Of a DNA stretch of 61,216 nucleotides, positions 3,605-61,216 are shown one piece after another. The position numbers and the translations under genes were made by a program. Each line of letters opens with the position of its first letter. Positions within the stretch are counted from its first letter, which is position 1. The notes beneath the pieces were generated by a model. The model worked only from the letters and a program-made list of their open reading frames with translations, was not told the origin of the DNA and made no database searches. The stretch lies in IMG/VR virus record IMGVR_UViG_3300022221_000265, positions 1 to 61,216 of that record. The stretch is one strand, 5' to 3'. This DNA is from a virus.

Positions 3605-3680
3605 TCCCCGGTAGCTCAGTTGGTAGAGCAAATGACTGTTAATCATTGGGTCGGCGGTTCGAGCCCGTCCCGGGGAGCCA
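3605..3680 (+). tRNA. tRNA-Asn (GTT)
   Basis: A 76-base tRNA with acceptor stem TCCCCGG/CCGGGGA, D-arm AGCTCAGTTGGTAGAGC, anticodon GTT at 3638-3640, T-loop TTCGAGC and encoded CCA. The 3' end from about 3662 is the attachment core reused at the right end of the integrated region. The tRNA stays complete after integration because the element's left arm restores the bases after the crossover. Confidence 0.97.
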
Positions 3681-13022: not shown

Positions 13023-13108
13023 AATACGCATAGTAATGACAGGAGTCTCCAGGGCTGCAGAGACAAACCAACACCGCCCTGGGATGTGTTGATTGTTTGA
13101 AGTTGTGA

Positions 13109-13696
13109 TCATGATCCAAGCTCCTGCTGGGCCTGTTCCCATGCCTGGTTGACCTCGTTAAATTTATCGACAGTACCCTCGAAAGTATCGGGGTGGGTCT
13201 CTGCCCGTTTCTTTTTCCAGGCTTCCCTGGCTTCGGATAACACCCTGCAACCAGGCACTCCCAAAACATCGCGCCAGTCCGCTGGACGGCTGAGATCAGG
13301 CAATGCCGTAAAACCAGAAAAGGCCCGCTCCATCATGTCACCCGTGCCCCAGCGTTTAATGCCACGCAGGGCCTCAATGGTTAGAGCGACTGCCCGGAGG
13401 TTATCGCCCACCGTTTTGTATTTGTCGCAAGCGAAACACATTTGCTTTTTCTTGTGCATAAAATAAACGGCCACGCCGGGATCTTCCGGTGTTCGCTGGT
13501 TGGCCATTGGCAGATTGTCCTGCCTAACTCTTAAATTTGTTGAAAGAACAACACCAGCACAGCCCAGTCGATCCAGTTCCTTAAGCAAACCGTCCCGCGC
13601 TTTGGTGAATGTTGTTTTAAATTGTGATCGCTGCCTGTTCCAGGCCTGCGTGCGTGCACGCCCTGGTGGCCACGATAATGGATATGCCTCAGCCAC
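13109..13696 (-). CDS. J-domain-like phage protein
   Basis: 195 residues starting at GTG 13696, which has AAAGGAG upstream and overlaps the stop of the previous gene as TAGTG. N-terminus MAEAYPLSWPPGRARTQ is typical of a prophage family. The C-terminal ~60 residues have the layout of a DnaJ J-domain (WRDVLGVPG ... AREAWKKKRAETHPDT ... FNEVNQAWEQAQQ), with the HPD motif intact as HPDT. It may recruit host DnaK to phage replication, by analogy with lambda's use of DnaJ/DnaK; that role is inference. Confidence 0.8.
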   Translation of the reverse strand: MAEAYPLSWPPGRARTQAWNRQRSQFKTTFTKARDGLLKELDRLGCAGVVLSTNLRVRQDNLPMANQRTPEDPGVAVYFMHKKKQMCFACDKYKTVGDNLRAVALTIEALRGIKRWGTGDMMERAFSGFTALPDLSRPADWRDVLGVPGCRVLSEAREAWKKKRAETHPDTFEGTVDKFNEVNQAWEQAQQELGS

Positions 13697-17573: not shown

Positions 17574-17912
17574 TTAAAGTAATGATTGGATAACGCGAGT
17601 CACATTGACCGACTCAATAAAACAACGCACTGGCCGATCTCCGTTCCAGTGAATGGCCATCAGCCTGATCATCTGATCAGAGTGCATACTAAAATCAGCA
17701 AAGCCATTACCCGGCAGGGTGCGCTCTATCTTTTGCAGGCCAAAGAAACCGATTAACGTGTACTGATAGGCCTCGTCCTGTCGATCAATCTCCAGTCGAA
17801 AAGGTACATGGTCCAGCAAAAACACCTCGCCCGGCTCAATCCAGCGACGTGACCGGTGGCCCTGGGTGTTCTCGTTTTTCTCCTGCGGCATTAACTCAAT
17901 GATCTCCGCCAT
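17574..17912 (-). CDS. Early phage protein of unknown function
   Basis: 112 residues from ATG 17912 with GGAGGG six bases upstream; the frame is open to 18035 but that part lies inside the neighbour. The sequence (WIEPGEVFLLDHVPFRLEID ... YQYTLIGFFGLQKIER) looks like a small beta-barrel. Unknown function; it sits between the small recombinase and a group of tiny genes. Confidence 0.65.
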   Translation of the reverse strand: MAEIIELMPQEKNENTQGHRSRRWIEPGEVFLLDHVPFRLEIDRQDEAYQYTLIGFFGLQKIERTLPGNGFADFSMHSDQMIRLMAIHWNGDRPVRCFIESVNVTRVIQSLL

Positions 17913-18084
17913 GGTCTGCCCTCCTTTTTTGTCTTTCCCTTGCGATGATCTGCAGGCACTTGTTGACAGGCTCATTTTGTAAAGCGTGATCAAACGATCC
18001 AACAGCCTCGCGCATCTTCGGACCCGCCAGTTCATAAGCGACCCTTAGATCCAGATCGTCCTGATTGTTTGCCTTGTCGCTCAT
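17896..18084 (-). CDS. Tiny helical protein
   Basis: 62 residues, MSDKANNQDDLDLRVAYELA onward, ending in a basic segment ARERQKRRADHGGDH. It overlaps the next gene by 17 bases. The ATG at 18084 falls inside the upstream gene's end, as elsewhere in this operon. No family recognised. Confidence 0.5.
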   Translation of the reverse strand: MSDKANNQDDLDLRVAYELAGPKMREAVGSFDHALQNEPVNKCLQIIARERQKRRADHGGDH

Positions 18085-40764: not shown

Positions 40765-41220
40765 TTAAGTGTCTCCCAGTCTAAATTCGGGATCTTGCAA
40801 GGTCAGGCTTTGACCCGAGGAAACCGTGACCGATGAACCCAGCGACATATGTCCGATGACCTGCGGGGCGACCTCGTCGTCACAGATCACCACATCGACG
40901 GCCGGGTTGCCTGCGCTGGGAATGGTGCCACCCGAGGCGTTCCAAACAAGATCTTTAGTCTGAATTAATGCCCGGTCGTTGGTGTCGTCCTCGGTCAGAA
41001 CGTCGAAGTCCGTCGCGTTACGGTTGAGGGCAAGCCCGCCGGCTGTGTAACCATTGCCAGCAGTGATCTCGGTCAACTCGGAAAAAAGGTTAGTGTCAGG
41101 ACCGGGGGCGACTGCGTTGGTAATTAACCGAGCAGAGAATCCCGTCGGTTCCTGGGTTACATCGGCGCGGAAGTATGCGGCTAAAAAGGCATACTTGCCC
41201 CGGTTGGTGATTCCTGGCAT
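40765..41220 (-). CDS. First gene of the accessory-virion operon, unknown
   Basis: 151 residues from ATG 41220 with GGAGG five bases upstream. Beta-rich (ALNRNATDFDVLTEDDTNDR, QVIGHMSLGSSVTVSSGQSL), similar in style to small structural phage proteins. It is 49 bases downstream of a late promoter element and so should be strongly expressed late. No family recognised. Confidence 0.7.
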   Translation of the reverse strand: MPGITNRGKYAFLAAYFRADVTQEPTGFSARLITNAVAPGPDTNLFSELTEITAGNGYTAGGLALNRNATDFDVLTEDDTNDRALIQTKDLVWNASGGTIPSAGNPAVDVVICDDEVAPQVIGHMSLGSSVTVSSGQSLTLQDPEFRLGDT

Positions 41221-41268
41221 GGCGGCCTCCGGCTATAAGCATTAGCCTGAGACTAGAGAGCCAGGGTA

Positions 41269-41294
41269 GACAAAAACAGGGCCAGAGAGGTTAT
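41269..41294 (-). promoter_or_regulatory. Late promoter element, copy 2 (accessory-virion operon)
   Basis: 26 bases identical to the copy upstream of capsid, followed by six bases and TGGCTCTCTAG, also shared. The start codon of the next gene lies 49 bases downstream. The element directly abuts the 3' end of the tRNA-like RNA, so the two signals are packed without a gap. Confidence 0.7.
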
Positions 41295-41295
41295 A

Positions 41296-41452
41296 AGTTC
41301 GGCGGTGGGTTTCGAACCCACGGACCCCGTAGCTTGGTTATCGATCAGGGTCACCCGTATAGCGCTATGAACTCGCGTGGTTGCATTTGGCCAGACGCTC
41401 CCTGTGCAGGGATTGCCCTCGGGTTTGTGCTCCCTCCTCTGCCACGCCGAAC
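41296..41452 (-). ncRNA. tRNA-like RNA of 157 nt in the late operon
   Basis: On the minus strand the 5' end GTTCGGC pairs perfectly with the 3' end GCCGAAC, a 7-bp acceptor-like stem. Just before the 3' half lies a canonical T-arm GTGGG-TTCGAAA-CCCAC. No CCA is encoded. Between them are ~120 bases, not the usual ~50: a possible D-like arm, UCCCU-GCAC-AGGGA, and a long arm with ACGG/CCGT and ACCC/GGGT pairs. No normal anticodon arm can be placed. It fills a gap between a small gene and a late promoter. Options: a phage tRNA with an insertion, a bacterial Y-RNA (YrlA)-type tRNA mimic, or a degenerate tRNA. Confidence 0.6.
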
Positions 41453-41462
41453 GGGTTAAAGC

Positions 41463-41645
41463 TTAGCACGGGCTATAAGTAACCGGTACCGGTGTCCAGC
41501 TTTTGCACCAGGTGCACTTGGCCATGCCGGTCCGGGGGTTCACCACGCGGGAACGAATCACCTCGCCATTAAAGATCGTCTTGTCGCAGTGTTGGCAGTT
41601 GACGGGGTCGGGAGAGGGTTGTGAGGCGGTCGCTGGCTGAGTCAT
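41463..41645 (-). CDS. Zinc-ribbon mini-protein (Com-like)
   Basis: 60 residues with NCQHCDKTIFNGE and AKCTWCKSW: two CxxC pairs 22 residues apart. The shape recalls the Mu Com translational regulator, though no mom-like gene is near. It ends 10 bases before the tRNA-like RNA. It may bind RNA. Confidence 0.6.
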   Translation of the reverse strand: MTQPATASQPSPDPVNCQHCDKTIFNGEVIRSRVVNPRTGMAKCTWCKSWTPVPVTYSPC

Positions 41646-44760: not shown

Positions 44761-46167
44761 TTAGTTTCTTGTTGCAATAGTGGTGGCACTCTCCCCTTTC
44801 CTCTGGTTCCCCGGCGTCACGCTGACCTTGCCCGGCCGTTTGGGCGGTTTGGGTTCGCCGTCTTCATCATCAGGGTATGGGTTGATCTCTTTGCTTTGAC
44901 GTTTGAGTCGATCTTTTTCTTTGGAGGGGTCAACGCCGGCCGCTTCCAGGATGGTCTCGAAGCTAAAGCCCAGGGCTTGCCATTTGAGGGCACGATCGGC
45001 CGCCTGGTTCTGGGTCTCGGTGACACGTTCAGCAAACAGCACAGCAAAATCCTCGTTTTCTGGGTTAATGCCGTTAAGCAATAAATGCAGACGAAAACCC
45101 AGCTCGTAAACAAAGGACTGCTCATCCTGCAGGGCGTCGATCTCCTCAAAAAAATCCTTGCGTAGATCTTCCAGGATGTCCCGGCTCAGGTCTCCCACAT
45201 AACCAAACAAACCTTTGGGAGCAGGAGCACCGGCAAAGAAGGTATCCAGCAGGTGCACCACGTCGGCGATCTGGTTCAGGTTGGCGTCACCTGAGATGGC
45301 TTTGACGTCCCCCTCTCCCTGGATGACATAGTCCGCCGCCTGGTCGTACTTGTCCGCCTCGATGTCGGCTTTGTATTCGGTATAAAACTCATTGGATACG
45401 TTTTTTAGCTGGTGCACTTTGCGCTGCTGGGCCCGGGTCTTTCTCCGGATCACCAGGTCCTCCTCGGTCATGGTGAGTTTTTTCCAGGGGCCGCGAGTGG
45501 CGTCCAGATAAGGCCGACCCATGGCGCCCATGTCGTCGAAGTTGTCCGGATCAAGGCGAACCATGGACAGCCGCCAGAGGGCAAAATATTCGGTAATGGT
45601 GCCCAGGGTGAGATCATATTGCGCGTAGGCCTTGCGCGGGTCTTTGAATAAACCGGCCTCGGTAACCTGGGGCACGATGGTCTCGGAGGGCATACGCACC
45701 CCGCCCACGATCTGGTTGTCCTGGTTAAGCACCCACTGGATGGGCAGGTTCCCATCCATGATCAGCCCTCGGGCATCACTTTTGAGCTTGGCCCGTCGGT
45801 GCAGGTTGAGCCGCTGGGCGAAGGTTCGCCAGTGTTTGATCAGGGTCTTGTTGGTGCTTTCGACTTTTAACACCAGCCCACTTTTGATCGCGGTGCTAGC
45901 CATCTTGTTGTGGATACGCTTCACCCGGGTGTCGATGCGGTCCATGTGGCGAATGTCCAGGATCGCCGCCCGCAGGGTGGGGTCGACCCACATTTGCCGG
46001 GTCAGGTAGAGCATTTGATTCTCAGGGGTGGCACGTTTGCCGATCTCGGAGTTATTCACCACGATATGGCCGGCCTGGTGGTGGGCTTTATCAAGTGCCG
46101 TCTGGGGCAGTGAGCCGATCCCCAGTGTCATGTATTGTTTTTGAATGTCCAAAAGTTGTTTGCTCAT
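44761..46167 (-). CDS. Portal protein
   Basis: 468 residues from ATG 46167, which overlaps the TerL stop as ATGA. LYLTRQMWVDPTLRAAILDI, PIQWVLNQDNQIVGGVRMPS, ADVVHLLDTFFAGAPAPKGL and DLSRDILEDLRKDFFEEIDA follow the Mu/P22-like portal families: wing, stem and crown regions. It forms the dodecameric DNA entry ring of the head. Position right after TerL supports it. The track-type longer start at 46212 is not needed. Confidence 0.85.
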   Translation of the reverse strand: MSKQLLDIQKQYMTLGIGSLPQTALDKAHHQAGHIVVNNSEIGKRATPENQMLYLTRQMWVDPTLRAAILDIRHMDRIDTRVKRIHNKMASTAIKSGLVLKVESTNKTLIKHWRTFAQRLNLHRRAKLKSDARGLIMDGNLPIQWVLNQDNQIVGGVRMPSETIVPQVTEAGLFKDPRKAYAQYDLTLGTITEYFALWRLSMVRLDPDNFDDMGAMGRPYLDATRGPWKKLTMTEEDLVIRRKTRAQQRKVHQLKNVSNEFYTEYKADIEADKYDQAADYVIQGEGDVKAISGDANLNQIADVVHLLDTFFAGAPAPKGLFGYVGDLSRDILEDLRKDFFEEIDALQDEQSFVYELGFRLHLLLNGINPENEDFAVLFAERVTETQNQAADRALKWQALGFSFETILEAAGVDPSKEKDRLKRQSKEINPYPDDEDGEPKPPKRPGKVSVTPGNQRKGESATTIATRN

Positions 46168-47939
46168 GGTCCTGTCCTGAGTTTGTTTAATTGGTTGAAG
46201 TGCATAAGCCACAAATAGAACTCGGCCAGCCTGGCCTGGGCGATCGGGTCACTGGGGAGCCTGGCGGGTGCTTCGCCCAGCAGCTCCGTGCGGGTTTTCT
46301 TAATGGTGCTGATCATGGTCGGCACACCCAGGGCGCCACGGGTGACCAGGCCCCAGTTGGCTGCCATGTAGGCATCGAAAAGATCATCGCCCAGTTTGCT
46401 GTTGGCCATTTTGTAACTGGAATAGTTGGCCTTGGTGGGTTCGGGTTTGATGTTGACCAACTGCTTGCAAAGCATAAGCAGGTCGGCCACTTCCGGATCG
46501 TGGAAGTCTCTATCCTCGTAATAAGGGATCGCCGCCTGGCCATTGTGGAAAGTGGAGCGCACGGCCTGGGCCATGGCGTGCTTGACCATGCCCTCGAATC
46601 GGATCGGCGCAAAGGGCCACTCGGTCCAGGTGCTGGCCGTGCTCTCACCGTCACCGATGGCGCGACGATTAACCGGGGTCAGCCCCTCCTCGAATAATCG
46701 ATCATTGAGGCTGGTTAGCATGCCGATGCCGTAGGCATCACCCACGGCCACGTCAGGATTGAAGTATCGCCAGTACCCTAGCAGGTCCAGCTCCACCACT
46801 TTCTCGTCGGTACCTGGGGCCCACTGTTTGGAAAAGATCGGCACCGTGAACGATCCGATCTGTTCTAAAACCGTAAAGGCATACTTTGAGGACTCGGGTG
46901 TCTCGCCGTGGCCTGAGTGGTCATAGCCAAACGAGATCAGCCCGCGCTTTTTGTAAGTCTCGCCCGGCATGGGTTGCACAATTTCCAGCCCGGCCTCAAG
47001 ACCCACCTGCAGGGCCCGGCGGAGATACTTCTCCCACACCAGGTTGCGGCTGGCTGTGTTAATGCAAAGAAGCTGGCGGGTAAATTCGTCCTCACTCAAA
47101 TCGGCGCGAATGTTTTTTATAAATTGTTCCTGGAGTAGGCCGAGCTTCATGGCGTTAACCGCATTAAGCAGTGGCAGGGGGTAGTTATAGCTCTCCAGCT
47201 CCAGGTGATCCTCAGTCAACCATCCGGCCTTGATCAGGTTTTTAATGGCCGTCCTGGCTTTATTATTATGTAAGGCACCGATAACGTGATAACTCCCGCC
47301 ATCCAGCAGGTCGGTGAGTGTGTCGGCGCCCTTAAAAACACCGGTGATCCGGATCTGGGGTTTGTTCTCTGAGGTTTTGCTGGCACCCATGCGACGAGTG
47401 GACCCGAGCATGAGCAGGAAACGACTATAAAGCCGATCCTTTGGCATGTCGTCCACCTCCTCGAGGCTGGCCACTGTCAGATCGCCACCATCCACCTGGG
47501 CCATGATGCCCTCGGCAAAGGCTTTGCTCCGGTTCATAAATTCATATTTTGTATCGGCCATCTGTTGGCGGCCGGACTTATAGGCAAGGTAGTTGCTTAA
47601 GATTGAAGATCGACGAATGGCCTCCAGGTGATAGTTGAGGTTTGCGATCGACTGGGTTTGTCTGGGAGCCACAATGCCGAGCTCCTGATCGGGCTTGGTG
47701 GCGTTATGGTGCAGGGTGAAAAGTTCCTTGCAGGCAGTTTTCCCGGTACGGCGCGAGGAAAAATCGATCGTGTTCGGGTGCTGTTCCATTTCTCTCATCT
47801 TGAGAACTTGCACCGCGTCCAGTTCCACGTTGTGGACGTGCTTATGCCAGAGAGCATGATCGCCAGCGTAACGCATCACCTCAGACTCAGCGACATGCTG
47901 CATGCGGACTCGTTGCTTTGCCGATATCCGCTCGCCCAT
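46164..47939 (-). CDS. Terminase large subunit
   Basis: 591 residues. The ATPase domain has the Walker A variant SSRRTGKT and Walker B-like LTVASLEEVDDM; the nuclease half has the acidic residues FGYDHSGHG, AVGDAYGIG and GDDLFDAYM. It powers DNA packaging and cuts the concatemer. The start ATG overlaps the upstream gene by one base. Confidence 0.9.
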   Translation of the reverse strand: MGERISAKQRVRMQHVAESEVMRYAGDHALWHKHVHNVELDAVQVLKMREMEQHPNTIDFSSRRTGKTACKELFTLHHNATKPDQELGIVAPRQTQSIANLNYHLEAIRRSSILSNYLAYKSGRQQMADTKYEFMNRSKAFAEGIMAQVDGGDLTVASLEEVDDMPKDRLYSRFLLMLGSTRRMGASKTSENKPQIRITGVFKGADTLTDLLDGGSYHVIGALHNNKARTAIKNLIKAGWLTEDHLELESYNYPLPLLNAVNAMKLGLLQEQFIKNIRADLSEDEFTRQLLCINTASRNLVWEKYLRRALQVGLEAGLEIVQPMPGETYKKRGLISFGYDHSGHGETPESSKYAFTVLEQIGSFTVPIFSKQWAPGTDEKVVELDLLGYWRYFNPDVAVGDAYGIGMLTSLNDRLFEEGLTPVNRRAIGDGESTASTWTEWPFAPIRFEGMVKHAMAQAVRSTFHNGQAAIPYYEDRDFHDPEVADLLMLCKQLVNIKPEPTKANYSSYKMANSKLGDDLFDAYMAANWGLVTRGALGVPTMISTIKKTRTELLGEAPARLPSDPIAQARLAEFYLWLMHFNQLNKLRTGP

Positions 47940-49485: not shown

Positions 49486-49503
49486 GGTTCGAGCCCGTCC
49501 CGG
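49486..49503 (+). repeat. Right attachment core of the prophage (internal)
   Basis: GGTTCGAGCCCGTCCCGG is identical to tRNA-Asn 3656-3673 but is followed by ACTAGCG instead of GGAGCCA. If this is the prophage's right end, the recombinase frame in the excised circle would end after GTGSNHWPI, a natural length. Everything from 49504 to 50984 would then be a second element. Confidence 0.6.
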
Positions 49504-49522
49504 ACTAGCGTATTTCGCAACT

Positions 49523-49717
49523 ATGAACCAATTCAAGGACATGACCAAAAAGAAACGATCTCCAGCTATTAATGTTAAAAAGATGAAGGTTTCCGATAAC
49601 CTGAAACCTGGCGAGCGAGTTAATGTCTCAGCGAAAATGGTAATGGCATTTTTTGGGGATGAATTAATGAGGGAGCTTACAAAAAGGACTCAGGCAAAGA
49701 GTAAGAAAAAAAGTTAG
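49523..49717 (+). CDS. Small basic protein, paralogue of the 18032 gene
   Basis: 64 residues from ATG 49523 (an ATG at 49541 is also possible). A basic N-terminus (MTKKKRSPAINVKKMK) and the shared core SDNLKPGERVNVSAKMVMAF then FGDELMREL, ending in a KSKKKS tail. It begins 20 bases after the core at 49486-49503, on the plus strand, and has no strong ribosome site. The relation to the prophage gene at 18032 suggests one was copied from the other or both from a common helper family. Confidence 0.65.
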   Translation: MNQFKDMTKKKRSPAINVKKMKVSDNLKPGERVNVSAKMVMAFFGDELMRELTKRTQAKSKKKS

Positions 49718-49827
49718 AGTATTAGCTATTTTAAAGCGCATGCTGTAACTGCCAAACTTCGGCGGTCCATTAGCTTAGCGTATCGAAAGCTTTACTTTTT
49801 TCATTGATGACTTTACGGTAATTTAAA

Positions 49828-50745
49828 ATGGGCGTGATAAGAAAATCAGACCCTGAAACAGGGGTGGTCACAACAAAATGCGATACATGGGATGACTTCA
49901 TCTCCGAAATGAGGATCGACGAAGGACGATATATTGGTGATCATATATACCGTGGACATGGAAGCCTAAGTTGGAAACTAGCATCAGTTTTTGAGCGTTG
50001 GATTGATGGACTGAAACAAGGAAATCCAGAGCAAATTATAAGCGATCTGTTTTCAGTTGGAGCACTTGAAAAATTTAGAAATCTATATCTTAAGCCCTTC
50101 ATGTATTTTGCTCAGCGAATTCCAGGCGAACAACTTCCAGATAAAGATGATATTGACGCTTGGCTTGCGCTTGGTAGGCATCACGGACTCATTACACCAA
50201 TTCTGGACTGGAGTCGAAGCCCGTATATTGCTGCCTATTTTGCTAGTATGGAATCCTTCAAAATTGCAGCAGATAAACACCGCCTATTTATAGCTGAAAA
50301 ACACGGCGTGGATGCAGCCAATAAATACGGACCTACATTTGACAGCGTAATGATGGGAATGGGCGGTCCAACTTTACTCCCCCATGAGCCATTCACAATT
50401 TGGGCATTAGCATGCCACGACGATACCTTTATCAAGGATGAATTCAGGCTCTTAGATAAGCCAGAGTTCAGAAATGACAGACTTCACGCTCAGCGGGGAT
50501 TATTCACATTCCTCACACATGATGTACATGTCGATGTAGAAAACTACTTAGCTAGTCGCAATCTAGGCAATCGGTTAGAAAAGTTCATCGTGCCTGGCCA
50601 AGAAGCTGGGAAAGTGCTTCATGACTTGAATCTTATGGGAATCAACAAAGCTGCTTTATTCCCTGATATAACCGGAGCTGCCATGCAAGCAAATATGAGC
50701 TCACATAGATTTAATCATGGTTCAGATAGACGTCCACAAAACTAG
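49828..50745 (+). CDS. FRG-domain protein
   Basis: 305 residues. IYRGHGSLSWKLASVFERWI (the F-R-G type motif as YRGHG), ALGRHHGLITPILDWSRSPY, IAAYFA, NDRLHAQRGLFTFLTHDVHV and GINKAALFPDITGAAMQAN are the FRG signature. The family occurs in prophages and defence-rich islands; its biochemistry is not settled. It is AT-richer than the prophage and lies alone with a small paralogue gene between attachment cores. A role in phage defence or in element maintenance is possible. Confidence 0.8.
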   Translation: MGVIRKSDPETGVVTTKCDTWDDFISEMRIDEGRYIGDHIYRGHGSLSWKLASVFERWIDGLKQGNPEQIISDLFSVGALEKFRNLYLKPFMYFAQRIPGEQLPDKDDIDAWLALGRHHGLITPILDWSRSPYIAAYFASMESFKIAADKHRLFIAEKHGVDAANKYGPTFDSVMMGMGGPTLLPHEPFTIWALACHDDTFIKDEFRLLDKPEFRNDRLHAQRGLFTFLTHDVHVDVENYLASRNLGNRLEKFIVPGQEAGKVLHDLNLMGINKAALFPDITGAAMQANMSSHRFNHGSDRRPQN

Positions 50746-50965
50746 CTACTCGAATAATCATATAGCTAATGCTCTATAAACTCAGACTAAATTGGAAGGT
50801 TAATATAGTGAGGTTGTACTCTGAGTCTGTCTGACAGCTTTATTCGGAGTGATTTTATTTTAACAAGCAATTTGGCCTATGGCACACATAAAGAACGCTT
50901 AGAGCCGTCCTTATTTCGGCAGAATTGGGGGAGTAACTGAATTCTGAGGGTTTTGGTTCGTAGTA

Positions 50966-50984
50966 AGCCCGTCCCGGGGAGCCA
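50966..50984 (+). repeat. Outer right attachment core, original tRNA-Asn 3' end
   Basis: AGCCCGTCCCGGGGAGCCA is identical to the tRNA end at 3662-3680 and is followed by a tRNA-type terminator. It is thus the host side of the integration. The bases left of it (ttggttcgtagta) come from the element. The 220 bases from 50746 to here hold no gene. Confidence 0.85.
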
Positions 50985-50999
50985 AACACTAATTCACTA

Positions 51000-51222: not shown

Positions 51223-52095
51223 CTATACAACAAGACTCTTTAAATACATCTCAAACTCTGATTTGAGTTCATCATGTTTCAAACCGTACTCTACCGTAGC
51301 CTGTAAATAGCCTAATTTACTACCACAGTCATAACGCTTACCTGTAAATGGGTATGCATATACATCCTCTTCATTCATTAACGCAGCAATTGCATCCGTT
51401 AATTGAATTTCATTCCCTGCTCCGCGCTTTGTAACTTTAAGATATTTGAATATAGTAGATGTTAGGATATACCTGCCTACAACAGCTTGTGTAGAAGGAG
51501 CTACATCTGGTTTTGGCTTTTCTACTATTTCCTGAATTTTTGCCATTCCACCATCTGTGCTAGCTGTCTTGACTATACCATATTTGTCAGTTTCATCCTG
51601 TTCAACTTCCTCAACCCCTAAAATACTGGAGTGGGTTTTTTCATATTTTGATACCATCTGTTTCATACATGAATTAGCCCCCCCATCAATTAAATCGTCT
51701 GCCAAAATAACAGCAAAAGGGTCATTACCAACTACAGGTTCAGCACATAGTACTGCGTGCCCAAGGCCTAAAGCCTCTGCTTGTCGAATATAGATACACG
51801 ATACATGTTCAGGAATAATGCCTCTAACCATATCCAGAAGCTTTGTCTTATTCTTTGCCTCAAGCTCCGCTTCCAACTCATATGCCTTGTCAAAATGGTC
51901 TGGAATTGAGCGTTTATTTCTACCTGTTACAAAAATCATTTGATCAATCCCCGCAGAGACAGCTTCTTCTACTGCATACTGAATAAGCGGCTTATCAACA
52001 ATTGGTAGCATCTCTTTAGGGCTGGCTTTGGTAGCAGGTAAAAATCTGGTTCCCATGCCAGCAACAGGGAATACGGCTTTTCTAATGGTTTTCAT
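51223..52095 (-). CDS. galU: UTP-glucose-1-phosphate uridylyltransferase
   Basis: 290 residues. Makes UDP-glucose from UTP and glucose-1-phosphate for surface glycans. The N-terminal motif [20 protein letters not shown] binds the nucleotide; [20 protein letters not shown] and ILADDLID with the metal-binding Asp follow. Last gene of the minus-strand polysaccharide cluster, six bases after ugd, feeding it substrate. Confidence 0.95.
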
Positions 52096-52101
52096 TTATA
52101 A

Positions 52102-53430
52102 TTAAACTTTACTTCTTCCAATTGAATAATACTGAAAGCCCAAATTTTTCATCATTTCGGGATCGTAAATATTCCTCCCATCAAAAATGACTGAATCAGC
52201 TAGAGATGATTTAACTTTATCAAAATCTGGGCTTCTAAAAGCACTCCACTCAGTAATAACGATTAGAGCATCTGCTCCTTCCAAAGCTTGCTCAGGTGAG
52301 TCACAAAGCCTTAAATCTTTATGATTACCATAGATTCTTGTTGTCTCCTCCATGGCTTTGGGATCATAAGCCTGAACTGAAGCTCCGCTTTCCCATAATC
52401 TCTCAATAAGAACACGACTAGGTGCCTCTCTCATGTCATCAGTATTAGGTTTAAATGAAAGCCCCCATAGAGCAAATTTTTTACCTTTCAACTTATTGTC
52501 ATAATGTTGAGATATTTTATTATATAAAACTTCTTTTTGACTGGCATTGACATCTTCTACACTATTTAGAAGACGTGGTGTATACCCGTACTGTTCAGCA
52601 GTTCTCGCTAGAGCATTAACATCTTTAGGAAAACAAGAGCCACCATAACCTGCACCAGGATATATGAAGTGATAACCAATTCGTGGATCTGAACCAATCC
52701 CAATTCTTACATTTTCAATATCTGCACCAGTCCTTTCTGCAATATTTGACAACTCATTCATGAAACTTATTTTTGTAGCCAACATGGCATTTGCAGCATA
52801 TTTGGTCAGCTCTGCAGATTTAACATCCATAATCACAAGACGATCATGATTACGATTAAAGGGTGCATACAAACTCTTAAGTATTTCTGCAGTCCTTACG
52901 TTTTCAGTACCAATAACAATACGATCAGGTTTCATGAAATCTTCTAATGCAGCACCTTCCTTCAGGAACTCTGGGTTTGATACCACGTCAAAATCAACAT
53001 TAAGTCCTCTAGTGCTTAAGACTGACTTTATCTCAGATTCAACTTTATCAGCGGTTCCTATAGGAACTGTGGATTTATCAATAACAATTTTATATTCTTC
53101 CATATGCTCACCAATACTTTTAGCAACAGCCAAAACGTATTGAAGATCAGCCGAACCATCCTCATCTGGAGGGGTGCCTACAGCAATAAACTGGAACAAC
53201 CCATGATCAACACCCTGCTTGATATCTGTAGTAAAAGAAAGGCGACCTGATTCAATATTTTTCTTCACAAGTTCATCAAGACCAGGCTCATATATAGGTA
53301 TTCCACCTGAATTCAATAGGTCTATCTTTGATTTATCTATATCAACACAGATAACATCATTCCCCACCTCAGCCAAACATGTCCCTGTTACAAGTCCAAC
53401 ATATCCTGAACCAAAGATTGTGACTTTCAT
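52102..53430 (-). CDS. ugd: UDP-glucose 6-dehydrogenase
   Basis: 442 residues. Oxidises UDP-glucose to UDP-glucuronate with [23 protein letters not shown] is the NAD-binding start; the catalytic Cys is in [16 protein letters not shown]; a C-terminal UDP-binding domain ([18 protein letters not shown]) follows. It is upstream of galU in the same unit and supplies uronic acid for the polysaccharide. Confidence 0.95.
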
Positions 53431-53589
53431 AAAATCTCCATTTGAAATTTATAAATGAACTGTTTTTTACAGCGCAACAAACTATTTCGCTATATTATAG
53501 TGCGATTATACATTAAGTAGTTTATGTAACAATATGTTAGAACAGATTTATTTAATACATATAAATATTTCGTGTTGTACAAAATGTAC

Positions 53590-55563
53590 TCAATGAAGAG
53601 GCTTTTGAGGTATAACATTACTATCCGACTTCTTTACATCTTCGCTACTCTCGGGGTGTTTTGATTTTGAGAGTTTCTGATTTTCCCAAACTGGATCTGT
53701 GGTTTGTGATTTTGGGTTAAACTCAATTACCGCATCTTTCAAAATAGCGACAACATTTTCGGCATCAAAATTCATACAGCTTTTCTCAAATAATTTAAGA
53801 TATTGAATTACAACATCGTAAGGTAACTCATTTTCTTCAGCTCTCATTATCTTCGGATGTTCAGTTCCTGAGGCGTTATCGCCTATTAGCAATTCCTCAT
53901 ATAGCTTTTCGCCCGGTCGAAGCCCTGTATATTTTATTTCTATTCCGCTTCGCCGACCCGCATCATCCTTAACATCGTGACCACTTAGATGGATCATACT
54001 TCTTGCTAAATCTACAATCTTAACTGGTTCTCCCATATCAAGCACAAATACGTCCCCACCTTCACCCATTGTAGACGCCTGTAAAACCAGTTGAGAAGCT
54101 TCCGATATTGTCATGAAATATCTTGTGATTTCTGGGTGAGTAACTGTTACCGGCCCACCTTTTCTTATTTGCCCCCTAAATAATGGTACAACAGACCCTG
54201 ATGAACCAAGGACATTACCAAATCTCACCATTGAAAAAATTGGTTTAGTATATTTCCTAGCTAAAGCCTGTAATACTAATTCAGCCATTCGTTTTGTTGC
54301 CCCCATTACATTTGTTGGACGAACGGCTTTATCTGTAGATATGAGAATAAATTTCTCGATATTCGCAGCAATTGCTGCTTCAGCACATCTCCATGTACCA
54401 ATTACATTATTCCATACTCCCTCTATAGGGTTTGATTCTACTAATGGAACATGTTTATAAGCAGCAGCATGATATATTACCTGTATATTCAGAGATTTTA
54501 ATACTGTTTCTACTTTTTCTTTATTTGTAATGGAGCCCAAAACAGGAATGATATCTATTAATTTATTTTTCTCATTCATGTTTAACTCTGAATCAATTTT
54601 ATAGAGCGCAAACTCACTTAGCTCAAACAAAACAAGTCTTTTTGGTGAAAATCTAACAATTTGTCTACACAATTCTGACCCAATTGACCCTCCTGCACCA
54701 CTAACAAATATTGACTTTCCACGAATACTAGAATCGAGCAATGGTTCTCTTGGTGAAACAACATCTCTACCTAACAAATCTTCAATTTTAATTTCTGTAA
54801 TATCACTGACATTTGCTTTGCCAGACAGCAACTCTACCATCCCAGGCACCGATTTAATTTGTACTGGGTAGGGTTCAAGTTTTTCTAAAATCTCATAACG
54901 ACGTTTATGTGTTACAGACGGCAAGGCCAGCAGAACATCTTTTACATTATATTTATCAACTAATTGTTGTAATTTATCTGAAGGATAAACTTTTATACCG
55001 TGAATCTCACTGCCATATAAATCAGTATTATCATCAAGAAAAGCAACAGGTCTGTAATCATTACCAATCTGTAAGATTTTTGTAATTTCTGCACCTGTTG
55101 CCCCTGCGCCGTAAACCACAACAGATTGTTTATAATTATCTACCGCACTAGCATGCAGCAGACTACGTATAAAAAATCGACTTCCACCTATAAATAAAAA
55201 ACTAATCCCCCAAAATAAAATAAATACCGACCTAGGTATCCCTTTTATTTCAAAGAGAATTACAAATAGAACGAACATAAATGTTAAGAGCGTAATTGCC
55301 TTGGCAATAGCTACAATCGCTTTTTGCCCTATATACCTTATTACTGCACGATACAATCCTATTCTTAAGAAAATAGGTATGCTTACGAGTGGAATAAAGA
55401 AAAACAAAGGAATGGCTTGTTTAATATTGACTGGAAACCATTCACCAAGCCTGATTGAAAAAGCTAACCATATTGCACATGACAACAATATCATATCAAA
55501 CAATATCAATATTATTTTTTTATAATTTGGCGATATGGTGGCAATTAATCCAGAGATATTCAT
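53590..55563 (-). CDS. Membrane-anchored nucleotide-sugar 4,6-dehydratase, WbpM/CapD type
   Basis: 657 residues. Four N-terminal membrane helices (1-140), a first Rossmann region (VVVYGAGATGAEITKILQIG) and a catalytic Rossmann domain (FVSGAGGSIGSELCRQI, LISTDKAVRPTNVMGATKR). In place of the Tyr of the usual YxxxK there is Met (NVMGATK), as in the WbpM/PglF large dehydratases. It converts UDP-GlcNAc to a 4-keto-6-deoxy sugar, a step to bacillosamine or QuiNAc-type sugars. Confidence 0.9.
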   Translation of the reverse strand: MNISGLIATISPNYKKIILILFDMILLSCAIWLAFSIRLGEWFPVNIKQAIPLFFFIPLVSIPIFLRIGLYRAVIRYIGQKAIVAIAKAITLLTFMFVLFVILFEIKGIPRSVFILFWGISFLFIGGSRFFIRSLLHASAVDNYKQSVVVYGAGATGAEITKILQIGNDYRPVAFLDDNTDLYGSEIHGIKVYPSDKLQQLVDKYNVKDVLLALPSVTHKRRYEILEKLEPYPVQIKSVPGMVELLSGKANVSDITEIKIEDLLGRDVVSPREPLLDSSIRGKSIFVSGAGGSIGSELCRQIVRFSPKRLVLFELSEFALYKIDSELNMNEKNKLIDIIPVLGSITNKEKVETVLKSLNIQVIYHAAAYKHVPLVESNPIEGVWNNVIGTWRCAEAAIAANIEKFILISTDKAVRPTNVMGATKRMAELVLQALARKYTKPIFSMVRFGNVLGSSGSVVPLFRGQIRKGGPVTVTHPEITRYFMTISEASQLVLQASTMGEGGDVFVLDMGEPVKIVDLARSMIHLSGHDVKDDAGRRSGIEIKYTGLRPGEKLYEELLIGDNASGTEHPKIMRAEENELPYDVVIQYLKLFEKSCMNFDAENVVAILKDAVIEFNPKSQTTDPVWENQKLSKSKHPESSEDVKKSDSNVIPQKPLH

Positions 55564-55719
55564 ATATGGCTTCTATTGATGATAATTAAAATTTGATTTA
55601 TTTTCATAGTATATATCATATTTTTACTGATGGTTTTTATCGGTATTTATATATACACAGTATACTATTGCGTGTTTTATCTATAACACATTAATAATTA
55701 TAGAATTTTTTAATAATTA

Positions 55720-56757
55720 TTACAGTTCTTGTTGCTCATCAGCACCAGCTTTATATTTTATTGCTATTATTAGAAGGGGTAAATAAGCAATTATAACGCC
55801 AAGCATACCGTCTATTCTCTTACTCGCAACCAGGTATGCCAAGGGAAACAACCAAAATAAGTTTATTGCTCCAACGGCTAGTGATACTTTAGTATGAGAT
55901 TTGTATTTACGTGAAATGTATTGATAGGCATGGTTACGGTGTGCTTTATGAAGCTTCTCTTTCCTAATTAATCGTCTGATGAGAGTAGTTGTAGCATCAA
56001 CAACAAAAACTCCAATGAGTATAATCCACCCCCAAAATAATTCTTCTGCAAACCAAGCTGCCTGTAATGAAAACACACCTAAAGTCATTCCGAGAAATCC
56101 ACTTCCAACATCGCCCATGAATATTTTTGCTGTTGGAAAGTTCCAGAACAAAAACCCTAATACAGCAAAACTTAAGATTAGTGGCATCACCCAGTTACTA
56201 GTATCAGGAAAAAACAAAAGGTAAAGTAAAGTTCCACCTAAGCATACTGTAATTGCCTCTATCCCTGCTATTCCATTAATCCCGTCCATAAAATTAAACA
56301 AATTCAACAACCACACCAGACAAATTGCAGCTAGCACATACCCCCAATATCCTAATTCAAGGGTATAGCCAAATATGACAACGGAATCCAAACCACCCTG
56401 CATGACTAATGCCATAATAACTGCAACAAAATGTAAGAGTAGTCTCCACCTTGCTTTTACATGACTATGGTCATCAAGCCAACCGACTATTGCAATAATA
56501 CTGCCAGGTGCGAAAATCATCCAAAAATTCGTCGAGTCAAGTATATTTTGCAGCCAAAAAACAACTGACATTAATAATGTCACAATAACGACTGAACCTC
56601 CTCCTCCATTAGGAGTCGCCATGGTATGTGAGCTACGATTATTTGGGATTGCAAGAAGGCTCTTATCGATAGCATAACGCCTAATAAAACCTGTAAGCAT
56701 ATATGCTACGATACTAACAAACAGACACCATACTAATATGGAAACATTATTATGCAA
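55720..56757 (-). CDS. Undecaprenyl-phosphate sugar-1-phosphate transferase, WecA/WbpL type
   Basis: 345 residues, about ten membrane helices. WLDDHSHVKARWRLLLHFVA, LFNFMDGINGIAGIEAIT and FLFWNFPTAKIFMGDVGSGF are the MraY/WecA family motifs with the catalytic Asp residues and GDVGS. It links the first sugar phosphate to undecaprenyl phosphate in the inner membrane, starting the O-antigen or exopolysaccharide unit. ATG at 56757; an AT-rich 219-base gap precedes it. Confidence 0.9.
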   Translation of the reverse strand: MHNNVSILVWCLFVSIVAYMLTGFIRRYAIDKSLLAIPNNRSSHTMATPNGGGGSVVIVTLLMSVVFWLQNILDSTNFWMIFAPGSIIAIVGWLDDHSHVKARWRLLLHFVAVIMALVMQGGLDSVVIFGYTLELGYWGYVLAAICLVWLLNLFNFMDGINGIAGIEAITVCLGGTLLYLLFFPDTSNWVMPLILSFAVLGFLFWNFPTAKIFMGDVGSGFLGMTLGVFSLQAAWFAEELFWGWIILIGVFVVDATTTLIRRLIRKEKLHKAHRNHAYQYISRKYKSHTKVSLAVGAINLFWLFPLAYLVASKRIDGMLGVIIAYLPLLIIAIKYKAGADEQQEL

Positions 56758-56976
56758 AGATCACCAGTATTGTTTAATTGTTAACATACACATCTTAACG
56801 CTATTTTGATATTCAAAATATTTCATAAAGCATAAAACTTAATGCTATTCATTATTGATTAATGTTAATGTTTTGCTATGGAATTGCTAATTCTAACTGA
56901 AAAATATCACTTATCAATTCTATTGGATGATCAGCTAACTAAGACTTGATATATAGCCATCATTTTTTTGGATTAT

Positions 56977-58095
56977 TTAATTCAGCAAGTTTTTATAGAT
57001 TTCCATATGCTCCTTGACAACATATTCCACTCTATATCTTTCTTCTGCTATCTTACGTGCATATTTACCCATATCAACCAAAATATTTCGATCAGATAAA
57101 ATACTTATAATTGAATTTGCTAAAGAAACAGAGTCTCCGACAGGTACTAACTTACCATTTTTCTCAGATTCGACAACATCACGACATCCTGGAGCATCTG
57201 TAGTCACAATTGCTCTTCCTGATGCTAGTGCATCTAATAACGACTTTGGCATACCTTCTCGGTATGATGGTAAAACTACTAAACTTGCCTCAGCATAGAC
57301 TGATGGCATGTCAGCGCAATACCCCCACCACTCAACAGGCCCCTCATTCTTCCAGACTTCAAGTTGCTCTATTGTAACTGCTGCTGGATTATCTAAATCT
57401 GCAGGCCCCACTAATGCAAACCTTGCTTTTACTCCATCTGCTTGAAGTATTTTAGCTGCTTCTACAAACTCTTTTACACCTTTATCCCATAACATCCTGG
57501 CTGGCAGGATAACTAATGGAATTCCTTCTGGTAATGGCTTCGGAACAAATTCTCTTAAATTTACTCCTGAACCAGGAATCAAAACATCTTGTCCTTCATT
57601 AAGCACACCCATATCCTGTAACAATTTTCGATCTGTTCTGTTTTGAACAATAACTCGACTATTTTTGTGCCCCAAAGAAAAACGATAAATCCAGCTAACT
57701 AGTTTTTTCACCAGGCCTTGGCGCTGTCTTGTGAATAAATAACCCATCCCACTAATAGCAATAACTACACCTTTCACACTCATTAAGCGTGATAAAATAC
57801 CTCCGTATATAACTGGTTTTATAGTTACTAAGTGTACGAGTTCTGGTTTTAATTTTCTATAGATCTTGAATAAAGCAAATAGTAACCTCAATTCAGAAAA
57901 CGGGTTTTTTCCTCCTCGTGAAATTGGAATTTTTATATAGTTTAGTCCAGCATCTGTTATTTCTTCCTCACGAAGCCCCGTACCAGTTGCAATAGTCACT
58001 TCATATCCTGCCTGTAATGCACCTATGGCTATTGGTAGGCGATGAGAAACGAAAAATGCAGAATCATTTACAACTATCAAAAGCCTTTTTTTCAA
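56977..58095 (-). CDS. Glycosyltransferase family 4 (GT-B)
   Basis: 372 residues. RLLIVVNDSAFFVSHRLPIA, the N-terminal GT4 start, and the C-terminal domain with LVILPARMLWDKGVKEFVEA and VVLPSYREGMPKSLLDALAS (the EX7E region) define a GT-B retaining transferase. It adds a sugar to the lipid-linked unit. It overlaps the asparagine-synthase-like gene by four bases. Confidence 0.9.
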   Translation of the reverse strand: MKKRLLIVVNDSAFFVSHRLPIAIGALQAGYEVTIATGTGLREEEITDAGLNYIKIPISRGGKNPFSELRLLFALFKIYRKLKPELVHLVTIKPVIYGGILSRLMSVKGVVIAISGMGYLFTRQRQGLVKKLVSWIYRFSLGHKNSRVIVQNRTDRKLLQDMGVLNEGQDVLIPGSGVNLREFVPKPLPEGIPLVILPARMLWDKGVKEFVEAAKILQADGVKARFALVGPADLDNPAAVTIEQLEVWKNEGPVEWWGYCADMPSVYAEASLVVLPSYREGMPKSLLDALASGRAIVTTDAPGCRDVVESEKNGKLVPVGDSVSLANSIISILSDRNILVDMGKYARKIAEERYRVEYVVKEHMEIYKNLLN

Positions 58096-60032
58096 TTATG
58101 ACTCTCTCTCCATGCCTGAAACATCAAAACATCCCATAAAAGATAGTGCCACCTAGCACTACCTGATATGTGTTCATTCCACTTCTTCCGTATAAGTTTG
58201 GGATCGAAAAAACCTTCATCACAGATTCTTTTCTCATCAAGCAACTCTTCTCCCCATTCTCGCAATGGCCCACGCAACCACTGTTCAATAGGTACACCAA
58301 ACCCCATCTTTGGACGTTCCATTATTTTTTGTGGTACATATTTGTAAAGTACTTGTCTCAACAGCCATTTTCCTTGTCCTGCACGAAGTTTAGATTCCAT
58401 AGGAATTTTCCACGAAAATTCTATTAACTCATGATCAAGCATAGGTACGCGCGCTTCAAGACTTACTGCCATACTTGCGCGATCAACTTTTGTCAGTATG
58501 TCATCAGGCAAGTATGTCATCATATCTAGCAACATCATTTGCCCTTTATAGTCTGATATATTGTTAATCTTATCAAACAACATTGTTATGTTATCTGGTT
58601 CTTTAGCATCAATTACAACTTGATCAGGTTTTTTCCAATGTGATATCAAGTCTTGATAAAAAGACTTTCCATCATTGTGTACTAGAACTTCTGCTAGTTT
58701 TGGCAATCTATCTGCAAGACTTGACACCCGATAACGCCTGGGTAAAATTCTTTGCATAACTTCCAGAGAGTGTCCCGGAGCCCTCAGAAGTAGCCATGAA
58801 ATAAAACGTCGCCCCATAGGTGGCACCCGCTGTAAGTTCTGCCACATGTTATAACCCATCACATAACGATTATACCCGCAAAATAACTCATCACCTCCAT
58901 CGCCTGACAGACTCACTGTTACATGTTGACGTGCAAGCTGACTCACAAGAAAGGTAGGGATTTGTGATGAATCAGAAAATGGTTCATCATATATATGTGG
59001 CAGCTTTGGGATAACTGCCATAGCCTCTTCTGGAGTAACATAAAGTTCAGTATGTTCCGTACCTAAATGCTCAGCCACCAACTTAGCATGGTCTGCTTCA
59101 TTGTATGCCTTTTCATTAAACCCAATTGAAAATGTTTTCACTGGCTTACTACTTTGTGATTGCATCATTGCAACAACAGCACTTGAGTCGAAACCGCCGG
59201 AGAGAAAGGCTCCTAAAGGAACATCAGATTCCATACGATATTTTATCGCACGATTCATTGTTACATCTAACTCATCAATCAGTTCCTTAGAATCACATTT
59301 GTTGTGTGAAATTCCATTTTCAGCTATCGCATGTATATTCCAGTAACACACTGGCTTAAATAATTGTTCAGCACCTTCTCGTACAACCAGATAGTGTGCA
59401 GGATGAAGTTTATGAATACCTTTGTATATACTCCATGGCGCAGGTACATAATTGTGTCGCAAAAACAATGTTAGTGCATCACGATCAATCTCTCCTTTCC
59501 AGCCTGGATATGCCTCTAATGCTTTTAGCTCAGAACCAAAAAGAAATACTCCTTCATGGTATCCGTAATAAAGAGGTTTCTCTCCCATTCTGTCGCGCGC
59601 AAGAATTAGGCTCTTCTCAGAGTCATCCCAAAGTGCAAATGCAAACATGCCATTTAATCTACTTAAGGCCCCTTCTATACCCCAGTGACGTAGAGCAGCT
59701 AATAATGTTTCTGTGTCAGAATGGCCCGCCCAGTCAAAGTGCCCACCCCTACGTTCTAGCTCTGTTCGAATCTCACGATGATTATAAATTTCTCCATTAT
59801 AAACAAGAACAAATCGTTTGCATGGTGATATCATTGGCTGGTGTCCTGCTGCAGAAAGATCCAGGATTGAAAGCCGTCTATGCACCAAACCAATATCTGA
59901 TTTTTTATTTAGCCATATACCAGAATCATCAGGACCACGGTGCTTGATTGCATCCCCCATCTGGGTTAAGACTTGTGGGAACTCTCCCTCAGATATACCA
60001 GTATCTCCCAAAAAACCTGCAAAACCACACAT
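58092..60032 (-). CDS. Asparagine synthase (glutamine-hydrolysing)-like amidotransferase
   Basis: 646 residues from ATG 60032, giving MCGFAGFLGDTG with Cys2 as the glutaminase nucleophile. The glutaminase domain has RHRGPDDSGIW and LVYNGEIYNHREIRTELERR; the synthase domain has the ATP loop FLSGGFDSSAVVAMM and VSLSGDGGDELFCGYNRY. Such enzymes in polysaccharide loci amidate sugar acids. Start overlaps the upstream stop as TGATG; the longer frame from 60083 would block the Cys2 nucleophile. Confidence 0.92.
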   Translation of the reverse strand: MCGFAGFLGDTGISEGEFPQVLTQMGDAIKHRGPDDSGIWLNKKSDIGLVHRRLSILDLSAAGHQPMISPCKRFVLVYNGEIYNHREIRTELERRGGHFDWAGHSDTETLLAALRHWGIEGALSRLNGMFAFALWDDSEKSLILARDRMGEKPLYYGYHEGVFLFGSELKALEAYPGWKGEIDRDALTLFLRHNYVPAPWSIYKGIHKLHPAHYLVVREGAEQLFKPVCYWNIHAIAENGISHNKCDSKELIDELDVTMNRAIKYRMESDVPLGAFLSGGFDSSAVVAMMQSQSSKPVKTFSIGFNEKAYNEADHAKLVAEHLGTEHTELYVTPEEAMAVIPKLPHIYDEPFSDSSQIPTFLVSQLARQHVTVSLSGDGGDELFCGYNRYVMGYNMWQNLQRVPPMGRRFISWLLLRAPGHSLEVMQRILPRRYRVSSLADRLPKLAEVLVHNDGKSFYQDLISHWKKPDQVVIDAKEPDNITMLFDKINNISDYKGQMMLLDMMTYLPDDILTKVDRASMAVSLEARVPMLDHELIEFSWKIPMESKLRAGQGKWLLRQVLYKYVPQKIMERPKMGFGVPIEQWLRGPLREWGEELLDEKRICDEGFFDPKLIRKKWNEHISGSARWHYLLWDVLMFQAWRESHN

Positions 60033-61216
60033 CAGCTTCCCATCACCCTCTGATACCACTGTCGGTACATCAATACAGTCCATAACTTAGCCTGTTGATC
60101 CGATCCTGCTTGATGCTTAGTCCATGTTTCACGCACTACCTTAGCATCTAAACCACAATCTTCGATATCAGCTGGATCCAGCAGACTTTCTGCCCAGTCA
60201 CGTAGTTGACTACGTAGCCACATTCCCACAGGCATACCAAATCCTTGTTTTGGTCGATCAATCATATCTTTTGGCACATATTTATAAAGTACTTCGCGTA
60301 ACACCAATTTACCCTTATCACCCGTTTCAGTCAGTTTTAACTTTGTATCAAGGCCTATGCACCATTCAACAATTGGGTGGGTAAGCAAAGGGACTCTGGC
60401 CTCAAGGGAAACTGCCATAGTAGCCCTATCTACTTTTGTTAGAATATCGTCCTGCAGATAGGCACTCTGGTCTATAAGCATCATTTCTTCTGCCCATGTC
60501 AAATCAGGATAAGCTGCTGCATCAGCGCCTAATCGTTGTTGTGGGACATAATTTGAGAGTAGACTACCTGGTTCAGACCAGATTGACATTGTTTTCGGAT
60601 ATGCATCACTTCTTTTACATCCAAGATAAGATGCAAAACGATATATCCTATTTGATAAACCCTCTGAACCTGAATAACGATATCCCAAAGCTGGGTCAAC
60701 AATTTTATCCCAAATAAATCCTGGTGAATGTTCAAGTGTAGCTGATAATAATTTTAATCCCGCAGGTGATAGTTTTTTTCTTAATTTTTCAATTCGTTTG
60801 GCCCAATAATACCTTGGATAGCCTCCAAATAGTTCATCACCACCATCTCCAGAAAGGCAAACAGTCACAGATTCTCGTGCAAATTTAGAAACTAGATAAG
60901 TGGGAATCGCGCTGTTATCAGCAAAAGGCTCATCAAATTTTCCGCAAACCTCTGGAACGAGATTTGGTATATCGTCTGCATTTAGTATTAATTCATTGTG
61001 ATCAGTACCCAGGTGTTTAGCAACCTCTCTAGCATATTTTGACTCATCATGAGACTGTTCTGTAAATCCTATTGAAAAGGTTTTAATTGGCTGCATTGAT
61101 TCAGCCTGCATTAACGCAACAATAGTTGATGAATCTACTCCACCAGAAAGGAAAGCCCCAAATGGGGCATCAGATTGCATATGCATGCTTATAGATTTTC
61201 GCAGCTTGACGTCAAG
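60032..61216 (-). CDS. Second asparagine-synthase-like amidotransferase, 5' end outside window
   Basis: At least 394 residues, open to the window edge (LDVKLRKSISMHMQSDAPFG). The synthase ATP loop AFLSGGVDSSTIVALMQ and VCLSGDGGDELFGGYPRYYW are intact, and the C-terminus ends YRQWYQRVMGS. It is a close relative of the next gene, so the two are a tandem pair, probably acting on different sugar carboxylates. The glutaminase half lies outside. Confidence 0.9.
   Translation of the reverse strand, partial: LDVKLRKSISMHMQSDAPFGAFLSGGVDSSTIVALMQAESMQPIKTFSIGFTEQSHDESKYAREVAKHLGTDHNELILNADDIPNLVPEVCGKFDEPFADNSAIPTYLVSKFARESVTVCLSGDGGDELFGGYPRYYWAKRIEKLRKKLSPAGLKLLSATLEHSPGFIWDKIVDPALGYRYSGSEGLSNRIYRFASYLGCKRSDAYPKTMSIWSEPGSLLSNYVPQQRLGADAAAYPDLTWAEEMMLIDQSAYLQDDILTKVDRATMAVSLEARVPLLTHPIVEWCIGLDTKLKLTETGDKGKLVLREVLYKYVPKDMIDRPKQGFGMPVGMWLRSQLRDWAESLLDPADIEDCGLDAKVVRETWTKHQAGSDQQAKLWTVLMYRQWYQRVMGS

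Follow-up and report, generated by a model that had tools for sequence, protein, structure and literature searches.

The window, i.e. the whole 61-kb stretch of DNA analysed, a virus record containing a prophage, carries among its late genes a 156-nt element with the geometry of a tRNA (Table 1), in which a different domain stands at the position of the anticodon arm. The preferred explanation, to which a probability of about 0.4 can be given, is that this RNA (the window RNA) is a non-decoding tRNA mimic, which would be transcribed late, be excised by tRNA-processing enzymes, and act as a decoy or scaffold for a host factor. A preliminary description had proposed a tRNA-like, non-decoding RNA among the late genes, a proposal that is supported by the geometry, a shuffle control and the position of the element.

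Structure of the window RNA

Read on the minus strand from 41452 to 41297, the order of elements is GTTCGGCG-TG-GC-AGAGGAGGGA-GC-ACAA-ACCCG-(62 nt)-CGGGT-GACCCTG-(16 nt)-CGGGGTC-C-GTGGG-TTCGAAA-CCCAC-CGCCGAAC. The acceptor-like stem of the preliminary description is perfectly paired, as stated there, but its length of 7 bp was too low, since the helix comprises 8 bp (41452-41445 with 41304-41297); counted with a 7-bp acceptor, the RNA measures 154 nt from outermost base to outermost base. The canonical T-arm is confirmed as perfect at 41321-41305, and its stem abuts the acceptor with zero spacer, in the manner of a tRNA. The bases that form the tRNA elbow are also present (U8, A14, G15, G18, G19, A21, C48, T54, T55, C56 and A58), their assignment, via tRNA numbering, being our own. 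With a 7-bp acceptor, a T-arm and elbow bases, the window RNA has what is expected of a tRNA in these three respects.

Neither folding, nor ARAGORN, nor inspection of the sequence gave a 5-bp anticodon stem with a 7-nt loop and U33, and no CCA is present 3' of the acceptor (the reading is CGCCGAA-CTTATAACC). The reported absence of a normal anticodon arm and of CCA is thus upheld, the sole candidate stem being one that closes a 62-nt loop. This possible 5-bp stem (ACCCG/CGGGT), the 7-bp stem GACCCTG/CGGGGTC and the elbow bases had previously been missed. Within the 62-nt apical region there are a hairpin, TCCCT-GCAC-AGGGA, and the segment ATGCAA (41386-41381). Folding of the complete RNA gives an ordinary free energy (z = -0.84), so the evidence for the window RNA is its tRNA geometry, not its stability.

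Table 1. Features of the window RNA and its neighbours, with the basis of each assignment
Feature	Position	Strand	Basis and comments
tRNA-like RNA gene	41297..41452	minus	Geometry and shuffle control; uncalled by ARAGORN and Rfam
Acceptor helix, 5' strand, GTTCGGCG	41445..41452	minus	8 pairs with 41297-41304
U8, G9	41443..41444	minus	Sequence
Weak D-arm, GC-AGAGGAGGGA-GC, 2 bp, with A14, G15, G18, G19, A21	41429..41442	minus	tRNA numbering; inferred assignment
Stem at anticodon-arm position, 5' strand, ACCCG	41420..41424	minus	MFE fold
CCCGAG, the phage-family D-arm motif as well	41423-41418	minus	Motif test
62-nt apical region replacing the anticodon loop	41358..41419	minus	Fold
Stem at anticodon-arm position, 3' strand, CGGGT	41353..41357	minus	MFE fold
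GGGTGAC, matching a motif of the phage family	41356-41350	minus	Motif test
Variable-arm-like stem, 5' strand, GACCCTG	41346..41352	minus	Fold; 7 bp with 41323-41329
Variable-arm-like stem, 3' strand, CGGGGTC	41323..41329	minus	Fold
T-arm, GTGGG-TTCGAAA-CCCAC	41305..41321	minus	Sequence, fold, partial match to tmRNA model
Acceptor helix, 3' strand, CGCCGAAC	41297..41304	minus	Sequence; no CCA after
60-aa four-cysteine Com-like protein, upstream neighbour	41463..41645	minus	tblastn, related loci: conserved in related prophages
Promoter-like motif, GGCCCTGTTTTTGTC-N-CTCTAG	41253..41283	minus	By-eye comparison with L069, L071, L073 and L105
151-aa late protein, downstream	40765..41220	minus	Weak match to PHROG 644 (function unknown)

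Genomic setting

The window RNA was said to fill a gap between a stop codon and a promoter on the strand of the late genes, and this holds: it begins 11 nt past the stop codon of the gene for a 60-aa zinc-cluster ('Com-like') protein, and ~14 nt separate its end from the promoter-like motif of the next gene. The term 'Com-like' denotes resemblance only, Pfam giving weak zinc-domain matches; the comparison is with Com of phage Mu. The promoter-like motif, in which GGCCCTGTTT-TGTC also occurs ~12 nt before CTAG, is conserved in the relatives named in Table 1 and in several relatives comes directly after the Com-like gene; it has no match to the sigma-70 consensus.

Portal, terminase and head genes lie upstream of the window RNA, and tape-measure and central tail fibre genes downstream. 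The terminase (46164-47939) was assigned via a homologue in Microcystis phage vB_MaeS-yong1 that is annotated as DNA packaging protein Gp17; a search for terminase homologues returned 58 loci in bacterial genomes, mostly of beta- and gammaproteobacteria, and more than 80 viral contigs. In the inspected relatives with related terminases no tRNA-like RNA follows the Com-like gene, and the site instead has a terminator, the promoter-like motif or some other gene, so that the window RNA represents an addition there. A conserved short leader (like GGCATAACGC..GCGA-AAGCCC), then a terminator, precedes post-Com-like genes in related prophages (L005, ~10530-10615; L017, ~17860-17920; L094, ~10010-10080; L095; L124, ~7130-7180) and is a candidate second structured RNA.

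Detection tools and chance controls

ARAGORN made no call for the window RNA at default settings, including its introns-allowed and tmRNA modes; calls were obtained only at reduced thresholds, one of them a nonsense overlap. Rfam likewise gave no match at gathering scores, the threshold of RF00005 not being reached and none of the Y RNA, tmRNA and intron families raised in the preliminary description being called. At E ≤ 5 the only Rfam matches were an 18-nt piece of a tmRNA model, corresponding to the T-arm, and an unrelated plastid model.

A strict pattern, consisting of a perfect acceptor without G-U pairs, a perfect T-arm and U8/R9, had 0 matches in 14.05 Mb of dinucleotide-shuffled loci; without the U8/R9 condition there were 6 matches in the same sequence. 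A scan of the same type over the first 2.19 Mb of related loci returned mainly ordinary tRNAs, and, with U8/R9 and D-loop filters added, the only clean non-tRNA matches in these 2.19 Mb were the window RNA and L054, the RNA described next.

A family of tRNA-like RNAs in phages

No close homologue of the window RNA was found by BLAST, IMG/VR patterns or model searches. BLAST matched only the T-arms of ordinary tRNAs, a few unannotated tRNA-Ser genes among them, and exact and degenerate DNA patterns returned nothing from IMG/VR. The lead from the structural scan, L054, is a 104-nt RNA in Acidovorax sp. sif1233 (13083-13186), located between portal and head genes of a prophage whose terminase and portal type are as in the window. 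BLAST with the L054 RNA led to an unannotated site in Sphingobium phage Lacusarx, and a pattern made from the D-arm region that they share gave three further members in IMG/VR. A broader pattern gave 22 contigs, 21 with this kind of RNA and one (L184) with a shorter variant; the latter (5858-5941, 84 nt) has the D-arm and T-arm of the family and a short middle, and may be a minimal form. Among the carriers are phage contigs of 323 kb and 151 kb. Covariance models added prophage members from 4 of 301 genomes of Burkholderiales relatives, one of which (L194) looks degraded. With one of these models (R2) at E ≤ 1e-9, a strict cut-off applied without a positive control, none was found in 369 genomes of the gammaproteobacterial class and 299 phylum-wide genomes.

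The family comprises about 20 distinct RNAs of 101-128 nt, which come partly from contigs. Its layout is a 7-bp acceptor, TG, a D-stem CCC/GGG with the loop GAGNGGNNNAA, TGA, a linker, a long arm, a T-arm and a discriminator; CCA is encoded in only some members. The long arm, which replaces the anticodon arm, has ~10 bp, a 3-nt bulge and a GGC-loop-GCC hairpin tip. Among 15 members, 93.8% of cells are paired in the family structure, 19 of the 28 pairs have changes on both sides, and doubly changed cells number 60, compared with 14.3 ± 3.3 in shuffles and 11-19 in slid controls. The linker after the D-arm pairs, with covariation, with the loop of the long arm (CTAG/CTAG, CTCG/CGAG, CCAAGC/GCTTGG, ACCG/CGGT, CGTATGCA/TGCATACG). 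This linker-loop pseudoknot scores 119, compared with 59 ± 12.8 in shuffles, 0 of 50,000 of which reached that score, and counting in fixed columns gives the same picture (12 versus 4.7 cells); the fit is poorer in the largest members, i.e. Lacusarx, L161 and L155. Strong structural constraint acts on the family. Compensatory changes in homologues, which the preliminary description had asked for, are abundant in the related phage family; the window RNA itself, for which the searches gave no close homologue, offers none to score.

Most of the family RNAs are found close to where the virion genes begin, with a regulator-like gene on one side and HNH/terminase genes on the other, distances to the terminase having been read from simple ORF calls. 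In many members a promoter-like site and a leader are followed by a terminator, the T-tract of which stops 0-2 nt before the acceptor. Lambdoid phages have a late leader of similar arrangement, which this setting resembles by analogy. The window RNA also sits at a junction of late genes; an upstream terminator of the family type is absent there.

The family is apparently undescribed so far. Rfam holds no corresponding family, ARAGORN misses it, a search of open-licence papers gave no description, and it is unannotated in the sole deposited phage genome in which it was found, i.e. that of Lacusarx; L189 barely passes the general tRNA model of Rfam (30.9 bits versus 29). In Lacusarx (L160, 5679-6072) ARAGORN identifies a tmRNA gene and 14 tRNAs near the tRNA-like RNA. 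In L186 the family member is followed, directly after 7368 (minus strand), by another odd stretch that is tRNA-like and contains two TTCGA motifs.

Relationship of the window RNA to the family

The window RNA and the family have in common acceptor-TG, the elbow bases, a non-decoding middle and a late-gene location, and may share the motifs CCCGAG and GGGTGAC. In the window RNA these motifs occur in order and mutually paired, but an enlarged loop separates them and a 19-nt insert precedes them; both motifs in order, chosen post hoc, are found in 0.035% of shuffles. By contrast, the 3-4 bp D-stem CCC/GGG, the long arm tipped by GGC-loop-GCC and the linker-loop pseudoknot of the family are none of them clear in the window RNA, in which the best candidate for the pseudoknot has 4 bp and falls short of that in the family. 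The two covariance models built from the family score the window RNA at 16.1 bits (R1) and 14.9 bits (R2), versus 30-45 bits for ordinary tRNA-Ser genes; the model built from the window RNA alone (R3) scores family members and tRNA-Ser genes equally high.

Common descent of the window RNA and the phage family is possible, with the odds leaning against it; in its favour are the two motifs and the presence of a genuine family member in a sister prophage. The wider proposal is that phages have an undescribed family of late-expressed tRNA mimics, whose anticodon arm has given way to a long arm that a linker-loop pseudoknot locks in place, the window RNA being either a diverged and enlarged member or an independent invention, and acting on a host tRNA-binding factor; this is tentative, its chances being somewhat below even.

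Alternative explanations

The main rival is a phage-borne class II tRNA (Ser/Leu type), with an anticodon domain enlarged by insertion, that is now a functionless pseudogene or a decaying tRNA. Such an origin, which we consider unlikely, would fit the class II cloverleaf order (acceptor, D, enlarged anticodon arm, 7-bp variable arm, T), the lack of CCA, the relatives without a tRNA-like RNA at the same site, and the equally good resemblance of the window RNA to ordinary tRNA-Ser by R3. Class II tRNAs (tRNA-Ser, tRNA-Leu) share with it the 7-bp acceptor, U8, the D-loop AGG..A, a long variable-type arm and TTCGA in the T-arm; the window RNA differs in having a 62-nt apical region where they have a 5-bp stem and 7-nt anticodon loop, and in lacking CCA. 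A drifting pseudogene would, however, be expected to lose acceptor pairs too, whereas the acceptor and T-arm are intact here, as are the elbow bases, which weakens the earlier view that a tRNA with an insertion is the simpler alternative and leaves it as the second reading. Removing one internal segment between the ACCCG and CGGGT strands recovers neither U33 nor a 7-nt loop, ARAGORN at default score with introns allowed finds nothing, and a constrained non-decoding RNA is kept in a related prophage. tRNAs with a non-canonical cloverleaf are reportedly of the translation type, with an anticodon arm present and altered acceptor or T lengths; the window RNA shares the non-canonical cloverleaf with them, but its acceptor and T lengths are canonical and it is the decoding arm that is missing. 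Several more specific candidates were rejected or set aside: an intron-containing tRNA, called by ARAGORN at reduced thresholds only; a group I intron, the surplus over a tRNA being just ~70-80 nt with no match to an Rfam intron family; GCA in ATGCAA as a cysteine anticodon, the letters differing in other members and the segment covarying with the arm loop; and the direct repeat ACTTATARCC flanking the window RNA as an insertion footprint, CTTATAGCC being found a third time nearby.

It is improbable that the window RNA is a cis-acting processing signal, at which RNase P (and RNase Z) would cleave the late mRNA and split the Com-like from the capsid message, leaving the excised RNA as waste. 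Its location exactly between two late genes is consistent with this, as is the frequent placement of the family RNA 0-2 nt after a terminator T-tract and ahead of terminase genes, where a cut at the 5' end of the RNA would remove the leader from the late mRNA. A bare acceptor-T minihelix would, however, be enough for RNase P, the long arm and pseudoknot of the family would be left unexplained, and with a promoter-like motif directly after the window RNA no cut is required for the capsid message. That the likeness to a tRNA end arose by chance is very improbable, because the match of T-arm and acceptor is too exact; the low overall fold z-score would accord with chance, but the strict pattern had no match in 14 Mb of shuffled loci, and the window RNA occupies a gap between coding sequences on the strand of the late genes. 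More improbable still is the bacterial Y RNA of the YrlA type, a type marked by binding of Ro/Rsr and PNPase, that had been suggested. YrlA RNAs are 90-150 nt long and consist of a large stem of paired 5' and 3' ends and a tRNA-like domain (PMC8394870). The window RNA has a tRNA-like domain and was counted as within the YrlA length range, and both mimic the tRNA elbow, but the placement of the paired ends differs, those of the window RNA being an acceptor joined directly to the T-stem with no separate protein-binding stem. Furthermore, no TROVE (Ro) gene is present in the window, as had been stated, or in 16 family records, the positive control having been detected. tmRNA resembles the window RNA in having a tRNA acceptor and T-arm with another domain for the anticodon arm, but the window RNA has only ~156 nt and no recognised tag reading frame. 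An identity with tmRNA, which the preliminary description had named among RNAs with similar ends, is not supported, there being no call from the tmRNA mode of ARAGORN or from Rfam RF00023 and no tmRNA-model match beyond the T-arm; a tmRNA-like reading frame from ATGCAA was rejected, the next codon being a stop in L162 and the lengths unconserved.

Possible function

Well-known cases of tRNA mimicry are those of plant RNA viruses, tmRNA and Y RNAs; for the late region of DNA phages, a search of open-licence papers gave no account of a gene for such a mimic. That the window RNA is a non-decoding mimic is favoured by the retention of elbow bases for tertiary contacts with the decoding arm gone, and by the RNA of the same type in the late genes of the Acidovorax prophage with matching terminase and portal type. 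Against it are the weak D-stem, the ordinary fold energy, family scores below those of tRNA-Ser, and the absence of a homologue, because of which its own structure is without comparative support.

We infer that the window RNA is transcribed, processed, stable and used as a decoy. It would be co-transcribed with the late genes, and its acceptor and elbow would recruit tRNA maturation enzymes, i.e. RNase P for the 5' end and either RNase Z or exonucleases for the 3' end; as CCA is not encoded, it would be added post-transcriptionally. A stable small RNA would thereby be cut from the late transcript, in which the parts read by processing enzymes and elongation factor (acceptor, T-arm, elbow) would be kept and the part read by the ribosome swapped. 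Because the anticodon arm is replaced by a different domain, the product could not decode, and most likely it would occupy a host factor or nuclease that recognises tRNA by acceptor and elbow. The window RNA and the phage family may be of the same kind, the replacement domain in the family being the long arm, whose loop pairs with the linker after the D-arm. If made, these RNAs would provide a direct test of what a phage gains from a tRNA elbow without an anticodon; it could shield the phage against defences that target tRNA, govern the ends of late mRNAs, or titrate a host factor.

Other features of the window

In the window (3605-5231) a tRNA-Asn(GTT) and an ORF for a large serine recombinase overlap at the 3' end of the latter, and 3' pieces of this tRNA (18-19 nt) are repeated at 49486 and 50966; from these recurring pieces the prophage seems to span ~3.66-49.5 kb. 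A second att-flanked segment (49486-50985, ~1.5 kb), the sole gene of which encodes an FRG-domain protein (49828-50745, plus strand), resembles a small island of cargo or defence genes next to the prophage. The region 51223-61186 has genes for UDP-glucose dehydrogenase, nucleotide-sugar epimerase and glycosyltransferase-like proteins, which are probably surface-polysaccharide genes of the host and lie outside the prophage.
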